Origin: an uncultured Bacilli bacterium
Lineage (GTDB): Bacteria; Bacillota_I; Bacilli_A; RF39; UBA660
Length of the DNA: 45,633 nucleotides
Reading direction: 5' to 3'
NCBI GenBank assembly: GCA_944358815.1
Contig: CALVRX010000027.1
Coordinates: forward strand, 1-45,633
Below, in pieces: positions 21,201-42,079 of this stretch. The notes under the pieces were generated by a model, which was given only the letters and a program-made list of their open reading frames with translations, was not told the origin of the DNA and did not search any database. The position numbers and the translations under genes were made by a program. The number at the start of each line of letters is the position of its first letter. Positions within the stretch are counted from its first letter, which is position 1.

Positions 21201-21662
21201 TATCCTTGTCAAAATCAAATAACATCACATGATTGGGGTATAGGAGCAGTAACATGGAATAACAATGATTTGGCTGACCAAGTAAATGATGAAAATAGAC
21301 AAATATGGAATGGAACAGTTGGATTAATTAGAGTATCGGAATATATAAGAACCAATTCAAATAAAAGTAGATGTGGGACTATGCAGTTAGTGTATAACAA
21401 GGAAAATAATAATTGTTATCAATCAAATTGGATGTATACAACATCAGTAAATCATTGGTGGACCATCACCGCTTCAACTACTATGCCTCATTTTGTATAT
21501 TTAATTGATATGGGAGGTTATGACGGAGATACATATGTTAGAGGTAGAATTCAAGACAATTCTAGTACTTTTTCTGCAGATGTCCGTCCAGTTGTATATC
21601 TAAAATCTAATTTAAAATTATCCGGCAGTGGCACCCAGTCAGACCCATATACAATAAATTAA
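21201..21662 (+). pseudogene. 3' remnant of a large surface protein gene
   Basis: The frame is open from 21201 after a TAA, without any start codon that has a ribosome binding site (a TTG at 21270 is the first candidate). The recognisable sequence begins near DWGIGAVTWNNNDL and goes on through IWNGTVGLIRVSEYI, two cysteines, WWTITAST and FSADVRPVVYLKSNLKLSGS to a natural end. This is the C-terminal repeat-like end common to large exported proteins of gut Bacilli and Clostridia, which end in RPVVYLKS...GSGT..DPY. The signal peptide and most of the protein are missing. It has its own terminator. Confidence 0.7.
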
Positions 21663-26430: not shown

Positions 26431-26468
26431 CATAAAAAAAACTTACCATAAAAGGCAAGGTAAACTTA
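26431..26468 (-). terminator. Terminator of the PilB-like gene
   Basis: On the minus strand AAGTTTACC pairs with GGTAAGTTT, with two wobble pairs, followed by a T run (26433-26440 as A on the plus strand). Confidence 0.55.
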
Positions 26469-28055
26469 TTCAATATCCAAACTCTCAATACTATTTTCAG
26501 TATTATTTAAATTATTAGTCATATTATTTGAAACAACATTTGTCTCATTACTTGGATATTGATTATTAACGTAGTTATTAGTAAAACCATTGTTTTGATT
26601 AACCGTATTTTGATAAACATTATTATAATTAACCATATTATCATTCATATTGTTTAAAGTATTTTGCTGATAAACATTACCTGGAACTACATTGTCTTGA
26701 GCTACTGTATTTTGATAAACATTATCTTGAGCTAAATTATTTTTTAAATCATCAACAAGCTCACTACGTGCACCAATATATTCACTCTCATGTTGTTCTC
26801 TAGCTGCCAAAGCCTCTTTAGTTTCCATAATAGCCTCAGATAATGAACTGTTAGCACTAATTCTATCATCATCTTCTAATTCTATTAATTTAAGAATTTC
26901 TTCAAAAGTCGTAAAACCTTTAACAACTTTCTCTAGACCATCTTGAAGCATCGTAATTACATTTCCACTTCCATAAACCAAATCTCGAATTTCTTCCTTA
27001 GAACGGTTATTACTTAAAGCATCACGTATATGCTGGTCAATTCTAAGCACTTCATGAATAGCAATTCGTCCTTTATATCCATCATGACATTCTTCGCAGC
27101 CCTCCGCATCGTAAATTTCCTCAACATCTTTATTTAAAACAGTTCTAAATACTTGTTTTTCATATTCACTAGTTTTTCTAAGCGTTTTACAATGTGGACA
27201 TAACTGTCTAGCTAACTTTTGAGACACAACACCTTCTAAAGCTGAAGCTAATAAATATTTTTGAACATCCATATCGATTAATCTCTCAATAGTATTAAGT
27301 GAAGTATTCGTATGTAATGTCGATAACACTAAATGTCCCGTAATTGAAGCACGGACAGCAATCTTAGCTGTTTCAGTATCCCTTATTTCACCAATCATAA
27401 TAATATTTGGATCTTGTCTTAAAATACTTCTAAGCGCACTCGCAAAAGTCAATCCTATTTTCGGATTTGTCTGTACTTGGTTAATACCCGTAATATCCAT
27501 TTCTATCGGATCTTCAACTGTAATAATATTAGTTGAAGATGTATTTAATTGCTGTAGCATTGAATAAACTGTCGTCGATTTACCAGTACCAGTTGCTCCA
27601 GTAACTAAAATAATTCCATTTGGAACACTCAACATTTCTAGTATTTTTTTATAATTTTCTTCGCTAAATCCGAGTTCCCCTAAACCAGCCATACTACGTG
27701 TATAATCCAAAATACGAATAACGATTTTCTCTCCCGTACTAACTGGTAAAGATGACACACGTAAATCCAAATCAATACCTTCTAAAGTCTCTTTAATAGC
27801 TCCATCTTGAGGTAACCTTGACTCTGTAATATTCATCTTAGAAATTGTTTTAATACGAGTAATTAAATAATCACGATATTCCTCAGGTACTGTTGCATAA
27901 TCCATTAAAAGTCCATCAATTCTAATTCTAATAAGCAAATGATCTTCATACGGATCAAAGTGAATATCACTTGCACCTCTTTTAGACGAATCAACTAAAA
28001 TATCGTTAATAATATCGGCAATTGGAACTTTAGCAAAGTCAAATGTTCTCATCAT
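26466..28055 (-). CDS. PilB/GspE family ATPase with Asn-rich repeat tail
   Basis: A type IV pilus or type II secretion assembly ATPase of 529 residues. It lacks the N1 (MshEN) domain and starts in the N2 domain (KRGASDIHFDPYED). Walker A GATGTGKS is at 153-160, the Asp box ITVEDPIE follows, Walker B is near 221, the His box at about 240-250, and a zinc motif CPHC (286-289) with CEEC (320-323). The core ends at about 395. The last 90 residues are rich in Asn with repeated DNVYQNT-like units, which I do not know from PilB proteins. No pilC, pilin or prepilin peptidase gene is adjacent. Confidence 0.92.
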   Translation of the reverse strand: MMRTFDFAKVPIADIINDILVDSSKRGASDIHFDPYEDHLLIRIRIDGLLMDYATVPEEYRDYLITRIKTISKMNITESRLPQDGAIKETLEGIDLDLRVSSLPVSTGEKIVIRILDYTRSMAGLGELGFSEENYKKILEMLSVPNGIILVTGATGTGKSTTVYSMLQQLNTSSTNIITVEDPIEMDITGINQVQTNPKIGLTFASALRSILRQDPNIIMIGEIRDTETAKIAVRASITGHLVLSTLHTNTSLNTIERLIDMDVQKYLLASALEGVVSQKLARQLCPHCKTLRKTSEYEKQVFRTVLNKDVEEIYDAEGCEECHDGYKGRIAIHEVLRIDQHIRDALSNNRSKEEIRDLVYGSGNVITMLQDGLEKVVKGFTTFEEILKLIELEDDDRISANSSLSEAIMETKEALAAREQHESEYIGARSELVDDLKNNLAQDNVYQNTVAQDNVVPGNVYQQNTLNNMNDNMVNYNNVYQNTVNQNNGFTNNYVNNQYPSNETNVVSNNMTNNLNNTENSIESLDIE

Positions 28056-33787: not shown

Positions 33788-34144
33788 ATGAATAAAAAGG
33801 GGCAAGCATTAGTAGAATTTATACTTATATTACCAGTTTTGCTATTAATAATTATGGCAATGATCGATATTGGTAATATTTTTTTAACCAAATACACTTT
33901 AAATAATGACTTAGATATCGTGACCAATTTATATCAAAATAATGACGTCAAAAACCTAGGCACTTATCTTGCCAGCGAAGACCTAACTTTAGATGATAAA
34001 GCCGTAAACGGTATCACCACTTTAACTATTAAAAAAAATATCGAAATAAATGCCCCATTATTATCAAACATCTTAGGAGAAAACTACGAAGTTACCTCAT
34101 CTAAAGCCATATATCAAGACCTAGGAGGTCTTAACGGTGAATAA
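33788..34144 (+). CDS. TadE-like pseudopilin
   Basis: A protein of 118 residues with the TadE signature at its N terminus: KKGQALVEFILILPVLLLII, with the Gly before the likely cleavage point, Glu at +5 and a hydrophobic helix. The rest is a small external domain. TadE-type pseudopilins are processed by the TadV peptidase and take part in Flp pilus assembly. It is the first gene of the Tad operon. AGGAAAG lies before the ATG, and the next gene overlaps its end by 8 bases. I see no Flp major pilin gene before it. Confidence 0.85.
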   Translation: MNKKGQALVEFILILPVLLLIIMAMIDIGNIFLTKYTLNNDLDIVTNLYQNNDVKNLGTYLASEDLTLDDKAVNGITTLTIKKNIEINAPLLSNILGENYEVTSSKAIYQDLGGLNGE

Positions 34145-34508
34145 TAAAGGACAAACTTTAATTGTATTTGTATTACTTTTACCTTTTTTACTCTTATTAA
34201 TCGCTTTACTTTGGGAAGTAGGGAACTTACAAATCACCATTAATAAATATCAAACAGCTATTCAAGATACCATCAGATATGGTCTTAATCATCAAAATGA
34301 AGATGACTTAAAGCTCATTTTACAAAATCTATTAAAAGCCAATGATGTTCAGGGTGATATTCAAATTGAAATCAAAAATTATATCAAAATAAATGTCCAA
34401 CAGCCATATGATGCTTTATATAATAATTTGTTTAATCATAAATTTGATATTGACTTAACCTACATCGGTTATAAAAATCAAAATCAAATAATTATTAAAA
34501 AGGAATAG
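34137..34508 (+). CDS. Second TadE/TadF-like pseudopilin, GTG start
   Basis: A protein of 123 residues with the same plan: NNKGQTLIVFVLLLPFLLLL at the start, but with Val-Phe in place of the usual Val-Glu-Phe, so the conserved Glu is missing at +5 and replaced by a hydrophobic residue. The start is GTG at 34137, with AGGAGG 8 bases ahead inside the previous gene. It overlaps that gene by 8 bases. As in other Tad loci the second copy (TadF type) may cap or initiate the fibre. It is 9 bases from the CpaE-like gene. Confidence 0.78.
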   Translation: MNNKGQTLIVFVLLLPFLLLLIALLWEVGNLQITINKYQTAIQDTIRYGLNHQNEDDLKLILQNLLKANDVQGDIQIEIKNYIKINVQQPYDALYNNLFNHKFDIDLTYIGYKNQNQIIIKKE

Positions 34509-34517
34509 AGGGATAAA

Positions 34518-35258
34518 ATGGCAATAAAACAAGCAAAAATTATCACAGTAACATCAGTCAAAGGCGGTACCGGTAAAAGTACTTTCACATTAGCTCTTGC
34601 TGGCATCCTATCCACCAAAAAACTAAAAACAATTATTATTGATATGGATCTGCACTCTGGCGTTATTGCAGCATCTTTAAACTTAAAAATAAATAAAGAT
34701 ATTTATACATTAATTAATGACTATATGAATCATGGCTTAAAAGATTTAAATGAATACTTTATTAAATATAATGACTATATTGATGTCTTATCTGCCCCTA
34801 AAGACCCAAGACAAGTAGGAAAAATAAGCTCAAATTATATTGATATTTTACTGAAAAAACTGAAATATCAATATGATGTTATCTTAATCGATACTAATCA
34901 TATTATCGATAATATCAATCTAGTCACCTTTGATAATAGTGATAACATTATTTATCTAATCACCAATGACCTTATGGATTTAAAAAACATGAAAACCATG
35001 CTCGCCATCTATAAAGATATGAATCTAACCAAATATACAATAGTCTTGAATAACGCTTTATCTAAAGATCGCCTAAGCGCCCAAGAAGTTACATCATACT
35101 TAGATAAAGAAGTAAATTATGTTTTACCCGCTAGTTCATATATCAAAAATCTAAGAAAACTAGTCATGGAAGGCAAAATTATCTCTTTAGAAAAAGCCTA
35201 CCAAAAAGATAAAATAACCACTTTACTAAACAAACTAGTAGATAAAATTTTAAACTAA
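34518..35258 (+). CDS. CpaE/TadZ-like MinD-family ATPase
   Basis: A ParA/MinD-type ATPase of 246 residues. It has the deviant Walker A KGGTGKSTFTLAL (signature Lys at about 15), switch I-like IIDMDLHSGVIAA, and Walker B DVILIDTNHI. The N-terminal receiver-like domain of TadZ is missing, so only the ATPase part is left. TadZ/CpaE places the pilus machine at the cell pole or membrane. GAGGGAT precedes the ATG, and the CpaF gene follows in the same operon. Confidence 0.88.
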   Translation: MAIKQAKIITVTSVKGGTGKSTFTLALAGILSTKKLKTIIIDMDLHSGVIAASLNLKINKDIYTLINDYMNHGLKDLNEYFIKYNDYIDVLSAPKDPRQVGKISSNYIDILLKKLKYQYDVILIDTNHIIDNINLVTFDNSDNIIYLITNDLMDLKNMKTMLAIYKDMNLTKYTIVLNNALSKDRLSAQEVTSYLDKEVNYVLPASSYIKNLRKLVMEGKIISLEKAYQKDKITTLLNKLVDKILN

Positions 35259-35271
35259 AGGAGGAAATATC

Positions 35272-36600
35272 ATGGAAACTAAACGCTTTGTCGACGAATT
35301 TGCTCAAACAGCCGAACCTCAACTTTTAAAAGAAGTTGATGACTATGATGAATTTCCCAATAAAGAATTATTAGATGAGCTTAGAAGTAAAATAATCCAA
35401 AACATTATCGATAATAAAGATAAAACAAATGAAGATATGAAAGATTTTATCAAAGATGAAATTGATAAATCTATTGAAGGTTATGACCTATCTAATGAAG
35501 AACGTAGCTATATATATAATTTGATAGATAACGAAGTTAATGGTTATGGACCATTAACCGAACTTTTAAAAGATAAAGAATTAACCGAAATTATGGTCAA
35601 TTCACCTAATGAAATATATATTGAGTTAGATGGTAAAGTAATCAAAGATGACAGCGTCAGTTTTATCAACGATGATCATATCATTAGAGTCGTTCAAAGA
35701 CTCATCCAACCCATTGGAAAAACTATCGACATCGCTCATCCAATGGTCGACGCTAGACTAGAAGATGGTTCCCGTTTAAATGCCATATTACCGCCACTTT
35801 CTTTAAATGGTCCAGTTGTTACCATCAGAAAATTTAAAAGTGAACTCGCCAATATTGAAGATCTTCTTAGAACTGGAACATTAACCCCTTATATGGCAAG
35901 ATTCCTAGAAGCCTGTGTCCATGCCAAATTAAATATCCTAGTAGTAGGTGGTACTGGAGCTGGTAAAACAACCCTTTTAAACGTTCTATCATCATTTTGC
36001 GATCCTAATGACCGTATCATTACCATTGAAGACGCCGCTGAATTAAAATTAAAACAAGAACACGTTATCTCCTTAGAAACTAGAACTACGAACTATGAAG
36101 GCGATGGAGCTATTACCATTAGAGATTTAGTTATTAATTCCCTTAGAATGCGTCCAGATCGTATTATCGTCGGTGAAGTTAGAGGAAAAGAAGCCTTTGA
36201 CATGCTGCAAGCCATGAATACTGGTCATGAAGGTAGTATGACTACTATGCACGCTAATGGACCAGAAGATGCCCTAAATAGACTAGAAACAATGGTCTTA
36301 ATGAATGGAGTAGAAATCCCTGTCATTGCTATTCGAGAATATATTGAAAGTGCTATTCAAATAGTTGTTCAAGTTAAAAGACTATCTGATGGTCGTAGAA
36401 GAGTCAGCAGTATCAATGAAATAATTGGTATGGAAAATGGTGAGATTAAGCAAAAAGAAATTTTCAAATTTAGACAAACTGGCGTTTTACCTAATGGTGA
36501 CGTCGATGGAGAATTCTTACTCCATAAATATGTCCCAAAAGTATATCAAAGAATTAAAGCTAAAGGTATTGATGATCTAAAAGATATCTTTGGTGAATAG
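35272..36600 (+). CDS. CpaF/TadA-type secretion ATPase
   Basis: A hexameric ATPase of 442 residues that powers Tad pilus assembly. The helical N-terminal part (about 1-90) is followed by [39 protein letters not shown], Walker [13 protein letters not shown] (from about 226), [24 protein letters not shown], and [20 protein letters not shown], all characteristic of the family. AAAGGAGG precedes the ATG. It is the second secretion ATPase in the window; the PilB-type one at 26466 is separate and not of this branch. Confidence 0.95.
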
Positions 36601-36612
36601 GAGGTGTAAAGG

Positions 36613-38106
36613 ATGAATGGAAAATTCGATATTCAAAGCATTGAAAAACCAGTAAATCATGACATAACTATCGTTTTTTCACCATCTAAAAATGTCACCT
36701 CTTATACCTATCAAATATATCAAAATGATATTTTAATAAATCAAGTCGATGTTAATCAAAATACGAATGCTACTATTAAATTAACTGATACAGGCACTTA
36801 TAAAATTACCGTTCAAACAAACTTAATAAATAACACCACTGATATGATAAATAGTGGAGAATATATTATTGATAAACAAGCTCCAGAAATCAATATTTCC
36901 TCAAATAAAATTATTACCAAACCGACAGATAATAAAGATTTAATCTCCTGCACAGCTACTGATAATCAAGACGGTAACCTAACCAGTAATATTAAAACTA
37001 ATATCGATTCTATAACCTTAAATAAAGCTGGAAATTATACCTATACCTGTCAAGTTCAAGATGCCGCTGGTAATATTGCTAGCCAAAATGCTAATATTGT
37101 TGTTGAACCACATAATACCTCAATTTATATTATTCAAATAACTTGTTTAATTGTCTTATTTTTCCTAATAATTCGTATTATCAAACTATGTAAAGTAATT
37201 AAACTAGAAGAAAGACTAGACCCTTATATCATTAAATCAATTAAAAACGATACCATTAGTACATCAGAAAAATTAAACAAACTATATCAAAAGTTTTTAA
37301 CACTATTTACTAGTAAATTGCAAAAATCAGTTGTTGCTACTAAATATGCTAATAAACTAGAAAAATATACAATTGTAAGTACTACCCATAAAACTGGTTT
37401 TGATATTTTAAGCGGTAAAATTATCATCGCCTGCCTTTTAACCATCATGGCAATCATTATTAAAGCCTTTCAATTTAAACTCTTAGGTAGCCTAGAAACT
37501 TTAGGTGTCTTTATACTTGGATTCTTCGTTTTAGATATTTATTTATTTGCTAAATATAAAGTATTTCGTTGGAACTTAGAAAGTGACTTCATCGCCGCCA
37601 TCACCATCATGAATAACTCTTTTAAATCTGGACGAAGTATTATTCAAGCCATTGAAATAGTTGCCACCGAAGTAGGGGGAACCATCGGCGCTGAATTTAA
37701 AAGAATGAATCTAGAACTTCTATACGGTCTTGACATTGGACAAGTATTTAAAAGATTTTCTAAAAGAGTAAACTTAGAAGAAGCTGCCTATCTAACCGCC
37801 TCTTTAACAATTTTAAATAAAACTGGTGGTGACATCATCAAAGTCTTTACTGCCATCGAAAGAAACCTTTTTGATAAACGTAAATTACGCTTAGAACTAA
37901 AAAGCCTAACTAGCGGAAGTCGTATTATCGTCTACGTTCTATTAGGTATTCCATTCTTATTTATCTTAGTTATTAGTTTAATTAATCCAAATTACTTTTT
38001 GCCATTTATTACAACAGATATTGGACGTATCCTCTTGATATTTATGATAATTTACTATATAATTTTTGTGGTAGTAGTTCGTAAGGTAATGAAAGTGGTG
38101 ATTTAA
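36613..38106 (+). CDS. TadB with N-terminal Ig-like domains
   Basis: A protein of 497 residues that joins two unlike parts. Residues about 1-86 and 91-167 are Ig-like beta domains; the second is of the DUF5011/HYR kind (TATDNQDGNLTSNI, LNKAGNYTYTCQVQDAAGN) with two Cys at about 113 and 146 that could form a disulfide. A membrane segment follows (170-190), then the TadB T2SS F domain with SFKSGRSIIQAIEI and further segments near the end. There is no signal peptide. By the positive-inside rule (RIIKLCKVIK after the segment) the Ig-like part should face outside. GGAGGTG precedes the ATG. Confidence 0.88.
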   Translation: MNGKFDIQSIEKPVNHDITIVFSPSKNVTSYTYQIYQNDILINQVDVNQNTNATIKLTDTGTYKITVQTNLINNTTDMINSGEYIIDKQAPEINISSNKIITKPTDNKDLISCTATDNQDGNLTSNIKTNIDSITLNKAGNYTYTCQVQDAAGNIASQNANIVVEPHNTSIYIIQITCLIVLFFLIIRIIKLCKVIKLEERLDPYIIKSIKNDTISTSEKLNKLYQKFLTLFTSKLQKSVVATKYANKLEKYTIVSTTHKTGFDILSGKIIIACLLTIMAIIIKAFQFKLLGSLETLGVFILGFFVLDIYLFAKYKVFRWNLESDFIAAITIMNNSFKSGRSIIQAIEIVATEVGGTIGAEFKRMNLELLYGLDIGQVFKRFSKRVNLEEAAYLTASLTILNKTGGDIIKVFTAIERNLFDKRKLRLELKSLTSGSRIIVYVLLGIPFLFILVISLINPNYFLPFITTDIGRILLIFMIIYYIIFVVVVRKVMKVVI

Positions 38107-38612
38107 TGGAAAATCAAATCAAATTCATTGAAAAAATTTACGATAAAAAACAACTAAATGAAATTGAATACAAATTGAAATGTCTAGGTAATGACACTAA
38201 ATATACTGTATCTAGTTTTTGCCTAACTAGACTAATCATTTCTATCACCGCTTTTATCTTAACTATTTTATTAACCGATATGGGCTATATATATGCCCCA
38301 TTTGTCGCTATTGCCTGTTACTATTTGTTTTATTATTTTAATATTACCAAAAAAACAAAAAACCGTAATAGACGTCTAGAACACCAAGCGATATACTTCT
38401 TTGAAATTTTAACCTTAACCTTAGAATCTGGACGTAACTTAGAAAATGCTTTAAAAGTTACCTGTGACAACGTCGATTCCGAAATTTCTCAAGAATTTAA
38501 AAAAGCTCTGAACGAAATGAATTATGGTAAATCCTTATTTGAAGCTCTAAGCGATCTAAAAAATCGTATATCATCAGATATTATTAATAACATAATATTA
38601 AATATAATTTAA
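38106..38612 (+). CDS. TadC, N-terminal part up to an in-frame TAA
   Basis: TadC partners TadB as inner-membrane platform of the Tad pilus. The open frame gives 168 residues with two membrane segments (about 40-75) and most of the F domain (TLESGRNLENALKVTCDNVD, FKKALNEMNYGKSLFEAL). It stops at TAA 38610-38612 after LNII. The same frame goes on for 64 more codons with clear TadC sequence, so the stop is premature. The start overlaps the tadB stop by one base (TAATG). Either the gene is broken in this strain, the base is a sequencing error, or the stop is read through. Confidence 0.85.
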   Translation: MENQIKFIEKIYDKKQLNEIEYKLKCLGNDTKYTVSSFCLTRLIISITAFILTILLTDMGYIYAPFVAIACYYLFYYFNITKKTKNRNRRLEHQAIYFFEILTLTLESGRNLENALKVTCDNVDSEISQEFKKALNEMNYGKSLFEALSDLKNRISSDIINNIILNII

Positions 38613-38807
38613 ACAAATAGATTTGGTAATAGTATTTTAGATACTCTTTATAATGAAGTAGACTTTCTAAGAGATAAAGAACTACTTACTGTCAAAGAAC
38701 AGATAAATAAAATTCCTAATAAAGTTAGTATCATCTCAGTACTATTTATCGTTCCATTAATTTTAGTCTTAATACTCGGACCATATTTGATTGAATTCAT
38801 TAGTTAG
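38613..38807 (+). pseudogene. TadC C-terminal part beyond the TAA
   Basis: The frame continues directly after the TAA with TNRFGNSILDTLYNEVDFLR, then KVSIISVLFIVPLILVLILG and a natural TAG at 38805-38807. This is the normal last part of TadC with its final membrane segment. Full length would be 233 residues. No start codon with a ribosome binding site lies in it. The position of the stop is usually Gln in LLxQANRFG-like sequences, so CAA to TAA is the simplest change. Confidence 0.8.
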
Positions 38808-38818
38808 GAGGAACATCC

Positions 38819-41413: not shown

Positions 41414-41452
41414 ATAGTAAAACAAATATAATTTAAACTAGGAGTGATAAAG

Positions 41453-42079
41453 ATGAATCAAAATGAAAATTTAGAAATAACAATTCCATCCACCGAATAT
41501 CTGCAAAATTCCAGATTAATTCAAAAAATAGGCTTCCAAACAACCAATTATACCAATACTTATGAAGATTACTGGACTAATACCATAAGTGATTATTATA
41601 CTAATTGCTATACTTTTTTTGATAAAGTAAATCGTTTTGGACAATTAACTGGTAATAAAATAAATACCTATTGTGGCGTTAGACCCATTTTAAAAGGCAA
41701 ACAAATTCCTGAAATAGTCAATCATGCGAAAAAAACAGTCAAAAAAAACGGCTTAACAGTTATCCCTTTTGGTAATTGGTATAAAGCCAAGCCCTCATCA
41801 TTAAATGTCAAAATCCAATGTTATCCAAATAATAACACATATATGTTTGTAAACACCGATTTATATAATATTGCACCACTAACTTGGTATTACGATGAAA
41901 AAGCAAACTTATTATTATCTGAAAAAATACTATTCTCATCTCCAATTGTTTTCTCATCACATGATAAATATAATGGTATTTTCAAACAATCTGATTTATA
42001 TAAAATATTGAATACCACATTTGCCAACCAAGCCTTTCATCAAAATATCATAAGCAAAAAACTTATTCATAAAATATAA
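41453..42079 (+). CDS. Hypothetical protein with GVRPILKG motif
   Basis: A soluble protein of 208 residues with no signal peptide. The part around DKVNRFGQLTGNKINTYCGVRPILKG (residues about 55-80; motif CGVRPILKG) resembles the GVRPVL end of DUF6273-like domains found in exported Firmicutes proteins, and also the RPVVYLKS of the remnant at 21201. The second half (VIPFGNWYKAKPS, LTWYYDEKANLLLSEKILFS) has a regular alpha/beta look. The ATG at 41453 with AGGAGTG ahead is chosen over a GTG three codons earlier. A TATAAT lies at 41427-41432. The function is unknown. Confidence 0.62.
   Translation: MNQNENLEITIPSTEYLQNSRLIQKIGFQTTNYTNTYEDYWTNTISDYYTNCYTFFDKVNRFGQLTGNKINTYCGVRPILKGKQIPEIVNHAKKTVKKNGLTVIPFGNWYKAKPSSLNVKIQCYPNNNTYMFVNTDLYNIAPLTWYYDEKANLLLSEKILFSSPIVFSSHDKYNGIFKQSDLYKILNTTFANQAFHQNIISKKLIHKI

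Follow-up and report, generated by a model that had tools for sequence, protein, structure and literature searches.

In Tad (type IVc) pili, TadB and TadC together form the platform by which pilins leave the membrane (PMC11300603, PMC10191384). A published model shows a platform trimer gripping the pilin like a chuck immediately outside the membrane, and the platform protein has been described as the least well characterised of the core components of type 4 filaments (PMC10191384). For membrane proteins with an outward-facing N-terminus and no signal peptide, N-tails are usually shorter than ~50 residues (PMC7616256, Box 1), tails of more than ~100 residues typically using a signal peptide (PMC7616256); YidC-family insertases are unable to move long hydrophilic domains (PMC13261788). 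The window analysed here is a stretch of 45,633 nucleotides (contig CALVRX010000027.1, assembly GCA_944358815.1) from an uncultured Bacilli bacterium of the order RF39, family UBA660. An earlier note on its sequence had proposed that the gene at 36613..38106 encodes TadB preceded by two Ig-like domains, an observation which the present analysis confirmed as real.

The tad locus of the window

The operon, located on the forward strand and flanked by mutS and murC, comprises genes for a TadE-type minor pilin (33788..34144), a second minor pilin of TadE/TadF type (34137..34508; sub-threshold profile match, order conserved in relatives), a TadZ-like ATPase of the CbiA/ParA/CpaE type (34518..35258), the assembly ATPase TadA (CpaF; 35272..36600), TadB (36613..38106) and the second platform half TadC (38106..38811). 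TadB has 497 aa; its identity is borne out by the gene order and by a cytoplasmic T2SSF domain (PF00482, 50.1 bits) at residues 330-454 (37600..37974, forward strand); TadB and TadC carry one such domain each. In this assembly only, tadC is interrupted by TAA (38610-38612), which splits the protein after residue 168 and corresponds to Gln in all 15 relatives examined, representing either a nonsense mutation peculiar to this strain or an error in the consensus.

The tadB gene starts with ATG, 8 bases downstream of AGGAGG. The short region between tadA and tadB (36601..36612, forward strand) harbours this ribosome-binding site and, just past the tadA stop and ahead of the ATG, an in-frame TAA (36607-36609). 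Because of this stop codon the protein cannot extend further N-terminally and there is no space for a signal peptide; an upstream start was ruled out by the same codon and by the spacing in relatives. Since, in addition, no hydrophobic stretch precedes TM1 in any of 89 distinct fused TadBs (best 15-mer Kyte-Doolittle 1.36), the earlier claim that a signal peptide is missing holds.

Two near-identical genes for Flp major pilins (L205, L206), located off the tad operon on contigs C13 and C20 of the window's genome (G000), and a gene for an A24 prepilin peptidase on contig C26 make the Tad set complete. The two flp genes have similar upstream sequence, and in many relatives flp heads the tad operon; the encoded pilins end in a Cys pair, a feature likewise found in the Ig part of TadB (see below). 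The peptidase gene is close to a two-domain PilC-type gene and the enzyme is perhaps shared with that system. The reverse strand (26466-28055) encodes a second T2SSE ATPase, of PilB/GspE type, whose C-terminal tail of ~100 residues is rich in Asn; together with the PilC-like gene on C26, it makes a second type IV filament system in this cell probable. Two short ORFs (21270-21662 and 41444-42079) resemble the C-terminal end of DUF6273-type proteins, the N-terminal part being absent; the DUF6273 profile matched the latter below threshold and the former not at all.

Diderm Tad systems possess the secretin RcpA and an outer membrane. In contrast, neither secretin (PF00263) nor Omp85 (PF01103) was detected in any of 98 genomes of the family, with positive controls, so the system is monoderm and the proposal of a host devoid of an outer membrane is supported.

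Fold and sidedness of the N-terminal domains

Residues 1-166 modelled alone (AlphaFold2, 23 aligned N-termini) form two beta-sandwiches with a mean pLDDT of 95.3. The same strands recur in the model of full-length TadB (pLDDT 80.7, pTM 0.55), followed by a helix (169-205) and the helical TadB core. A prediction devoid of beta-sandwiches, named beforehand as the outcome that would speak against two Ig-like domains, was thus not obtained. Domain 1 (residues 1-87, 36613..36873, forward strand) matches no Pfam family above cut-off. Domain 2 (residues 88-166, 36874..37110, forward strand) had been described as of DUF5011/HYR type. Across the family, Bact_surface_Ig-like (PF16403) is matched in 21 (best E 1.5e-10) and HYR in 11 of 23 members (E<=0.01); the window's own domain scores 26.3 bits against PF16403, just short of the curated cut-off of 27 bits. 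The PDB neighbours of the pair come from exported proteins, in which they form tandem Ig or Fn3 domains. Nearest among solved structures of exported bacterial proteins are chitinase 60 (VIA Z 9.3) and internalin K (4l3a, VIA Z 9.0, 137 residues, rmsd 4.2), the neighbours including chitinase 4mb3 and the Fn3 modules of CbhA; a sequence profile of the Ig pair retrieves F5/8-type proteins in the PDB (7e-13). Invariant residues of the fused TadBs occur in the Ig domains and in the linker. The conserved D87, D117, D120, D150 and N154 map to the linker and to domain 2 loops, suggesting that the joint between the domains is stiff, perhaps with calcium bound as in other tandem Ig rods.

TM1 (residues 170-192, 37120..37188, forward strand) is predicted to run N-out and is followed by a K/R-rich loop. 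Assignment of the transmembrane segments from hydrophobicity and the structure model yields five, and since the T2SSF domain is cytoplasmic, the N-terminus of TadB should lie outside. Lysine and arginine are more frequent after than before TM1 in 88 of 89 fused and 38 of 40 short TadBs; they account on average for 9.2% of the ectodomain and 22.0% of loop 1, the ectodomain value being the lower in all 89 fused proteins.

C113 and C146 of the window's TadB, on strands 113-117 and 140-149, had been noted as a Cys pair. They are indeed present but specific to the genus of the window, Cys being absent from these sites in most fused relatives. The Ig part contains no Cys in 64, two in 21 and one in four of the 89 fused TadBs, so a conserved disulfide as a general feature was rejected. 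Pairs in the window's genus occupy 113/146; the remaining ones lie near 127/144, apart from one odd pair. None of 20,000 shuffles matched this pairing, a result uncorrected for kinship and hence of overstated significance, because the fused sequences are related. Pairing of this kind would be expected of disulfides formed outside. Ig domains of the same type occur within the same family in exported or anchored proteins, viz. glucosaminidase-like repeats, a YkuD protein and giant proteins with pilin leaders.

Charge distribution, transmembrane parity, paired Cys and exported homologues make the Ig part appear to lie outside the membrane, and the outward placement originally deduced from charge gains support from these further lines. 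A cytoplasmic N-terminal part that interacts with TadA or TadZ is very improbable: this would explain the missing signal peptide, normally needed by tails of >100 residues (PMC7616256), but charge bias and transmembrane parity are the same as in short TadBs, and the paired Cys and the exported homologues also argue against it.

Outward placement would require the N-tail to cross the membrane, probably via SecYEG and behind TM1 acting as its own reverse anchor. SecYEG is the likely route because such tails exceed the norm for translocation without a signal peptide and YidC-family insertases cannot move them. YidC was found in 56 of 58 genomes; in the incomplete genome of the window it was not detected. 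Crossing by a tail of ~167 residues would be exceptional and is the most testable oddity of Ig-TadB; as a conserved set of proteins with ~167 N-tail residues predicted to be folded, the fused TadBs offer a natural test of the rule that such tails remain below ~50 residues.

Distribution and ancestry of the fusion

The earlier note had asked for a search for the same fusion in related genomes. Among sampled genomes, full-length fusions were found in 26 of 145 for the family, representing 25 genera (all different except for two genomes), and in 53 of 385 for the order. About 45 of the 145 family genomes encode a ~335-residue TadB starting at TM1. A scan of named genomes yielded 80 fusion loci; those listed are MAGs of uncultured Bacilli, Firmicutes, Tenericutes or Mollicutes, several of them from animal guts. 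The occurrence in many independent genomes rules out an assembly artefact, and Ig-TadB is no single-gene peculiarity but is fixed throughout a clade. No fusion outside the family was seen in samples of the class (395 genomes) and phylum (392 genomes), in which a TadB bearing a differing Ig type could escape detection.

In a tree of 63 TadB cores, all 26 fused proteins fall on one side of a single branch (SH-aLRT 99), which points to a single acquisition of the Ig pair; its donor may have been the exported Ig repertoire of these bacteria. As the core descends from within the TadB tree and a homologous transmembrane segment follows the Ig residues, the fusion marks a variant of TadB. An N-terminal start with a transmembrane segment, from which this protein departs, is accordingly a usual and not a defining trait of TadB. 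Many relatives within the family lack the Ig pair, so it is dispensable for the Tad pilus as such.

The pair could conceivably be a passive spacer, captured by chance and kept without a role. Sister lineages do without it, and mean identity among fused TadBs is 37% in the ectodomain versus 54% in the core, i.e. the ectodomain evolves faster. The tree, however, shows no loss of the pair across its 26 fused sequences, and with invariant residues in the Ig domains and linker this explanation is scarcely credible, the least so of those considered.

It was also considered that unfused loci might encode the Ig part as a gene of its own; this was rejected, the few inserts between tadA and tadB (L046, L049, L051, L093) and a 198-aa ORF of L068 that ends in a transmembrane segment having the look of other things. 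Extra genes at this position, one of them pilin-like with a DUF6273-like end, were observed in L093, L051, L046 and L068. The products read in unfused loci resemble this type of pilin, TasA/SipW-like proteins and single-TM proteins. A gene of ~239 aa following tadC in unfused loci presumably codes for a YebC-type housekeeping protein outside the Tad system.

Possible roles and comparison with known systems

TadB is predicted to sit N-out; therefore the Ig pair should stand at the pilus base on the outside of the membrane, a position that would correspond to where the modelled platform chuck grips the pilin. The Ig pairs of the TadB copies in the TadB/TadC platform would most likely form a short rigid collar between membrane and thin peptidoglycan, which would receive the emerging Flp filament, steady it and guide it toward the wall. 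Such a collar or guide in a lineage-specific variant of the Tad platform is favoured with middling confidence; its oligomeric state and its contact with the pilus are inferred. Against it stand the faster evolution of the ectodomain, the many TadBs of the same family that lack it, and a tail longer than the N-out norm. Two tandem Ig domains reach ~8 nm, which is less than the usual Gram-positive wall. The wall-spanning collar originally envisaged is for this reason doubtful, though a thin wall is predicted for RF39 from published annotation (PMC10868615).

Two readings come close to the collar: wall binding and minor-pilin docking. In the former case, considered unlikely, the Ig pair would bind peptidoglycan or a wall polymer and fix the motor platform as an anchor or stator without touching the pilus, comparable to ArlF/ArlG and the S-layer. 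Ig domains of this family are found joined, in these genomes and in relatives, to enzymes of the wall (YkuD, NlpC/P60-like, glucosaminidase-like), and ArlF/ArlG are Ig-fold envelope anchors from the same filament superfamily (PMC13319060). They are, however, separate proteins of pilin descent with the Ig domain C-terminal to a transmembrane segment, whereas the fused TadB has the order Ig-Ig-TM-T2SSF; none of the known peptidoglycan-binding families was matched in the Ig pair by Pfam profile comparison, and a need for a stator is not known for Tad pili. As a docking site, the pair would bind TadE/TadF minor pilins or giant Ig-bearing pilins and load them at the start of the filament. Two genomes with the fusion (G142, G063) encode proteins of 746-882 residues with GFTLxE pilin leaders (L220 and L217, respectively) which carry copies of the same Ig pair; these rank with the closest homologues found for the ectodomain of TadB. 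The leaders of these giant pilins, though, belong to the other class of type IV pilus, and neither the lengths nor the gene order of TadE/TadF differ visibly between fused and unfused loci, leaving docking rather improbable.

Returning to the collar, it is tentatively proposed that an extracytoplasmic Ig collar ties together pilus, motor and thin wall, taking the place of a secretin or stator in a monoderm, and that its two-domain, ~167-residue N-tail constitutes a natural, widely conserved signal-peptide-free translocation substrate. A platform with a built-in ectodomain provides a handle on the filament exit site and bears on how monoderm pili pass and use the wall in the absence of a secretin.

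Among known systems, the ArlF/ArlG stator proteins of the archaellum likewise have an Ig-like domain outside, at the foot of a type IV filament machine, as predicted for Ig-TadB; for ArlF/ArlG S-layer binding has been shown and there is no platform fusion. In Escherichia coli, ProW has an N-tail of ~100 residues that is translocated without a signal peptide ahead of TM1. Ig-TadB shares this arrangement, its tail differing in length (~167 residues) and in its two predicted folded domains. With bacterial surface Ig domains (PF16403, HYR, Big_13; D3-D4 of internalin K) it has the fold and the tandem layout in common, and probably the sequence type of domain 2; export of such domains usually relies on a signal peptide or anchor ahead of them, whereas the pair of TadB is N-terminal, lacks one and is placed on a motor platform. 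A description of Ig-TadB was not found in the literature searched, which largely excluded subscription papers. With canonical TadB/CpaG it shares the T2SSF domain, the transmembrane layout and the position in the operon between tadA and tadC; the canonical protein, including the ~335-aa relatives from the same family, starts directly with TM1, and Ig-TadB carries ~167 Ig residues ahead of it. Ig-TadB is hence an apparently undescribed variant of the Tad platform, built from a familiar fold and an equally familiar motor.
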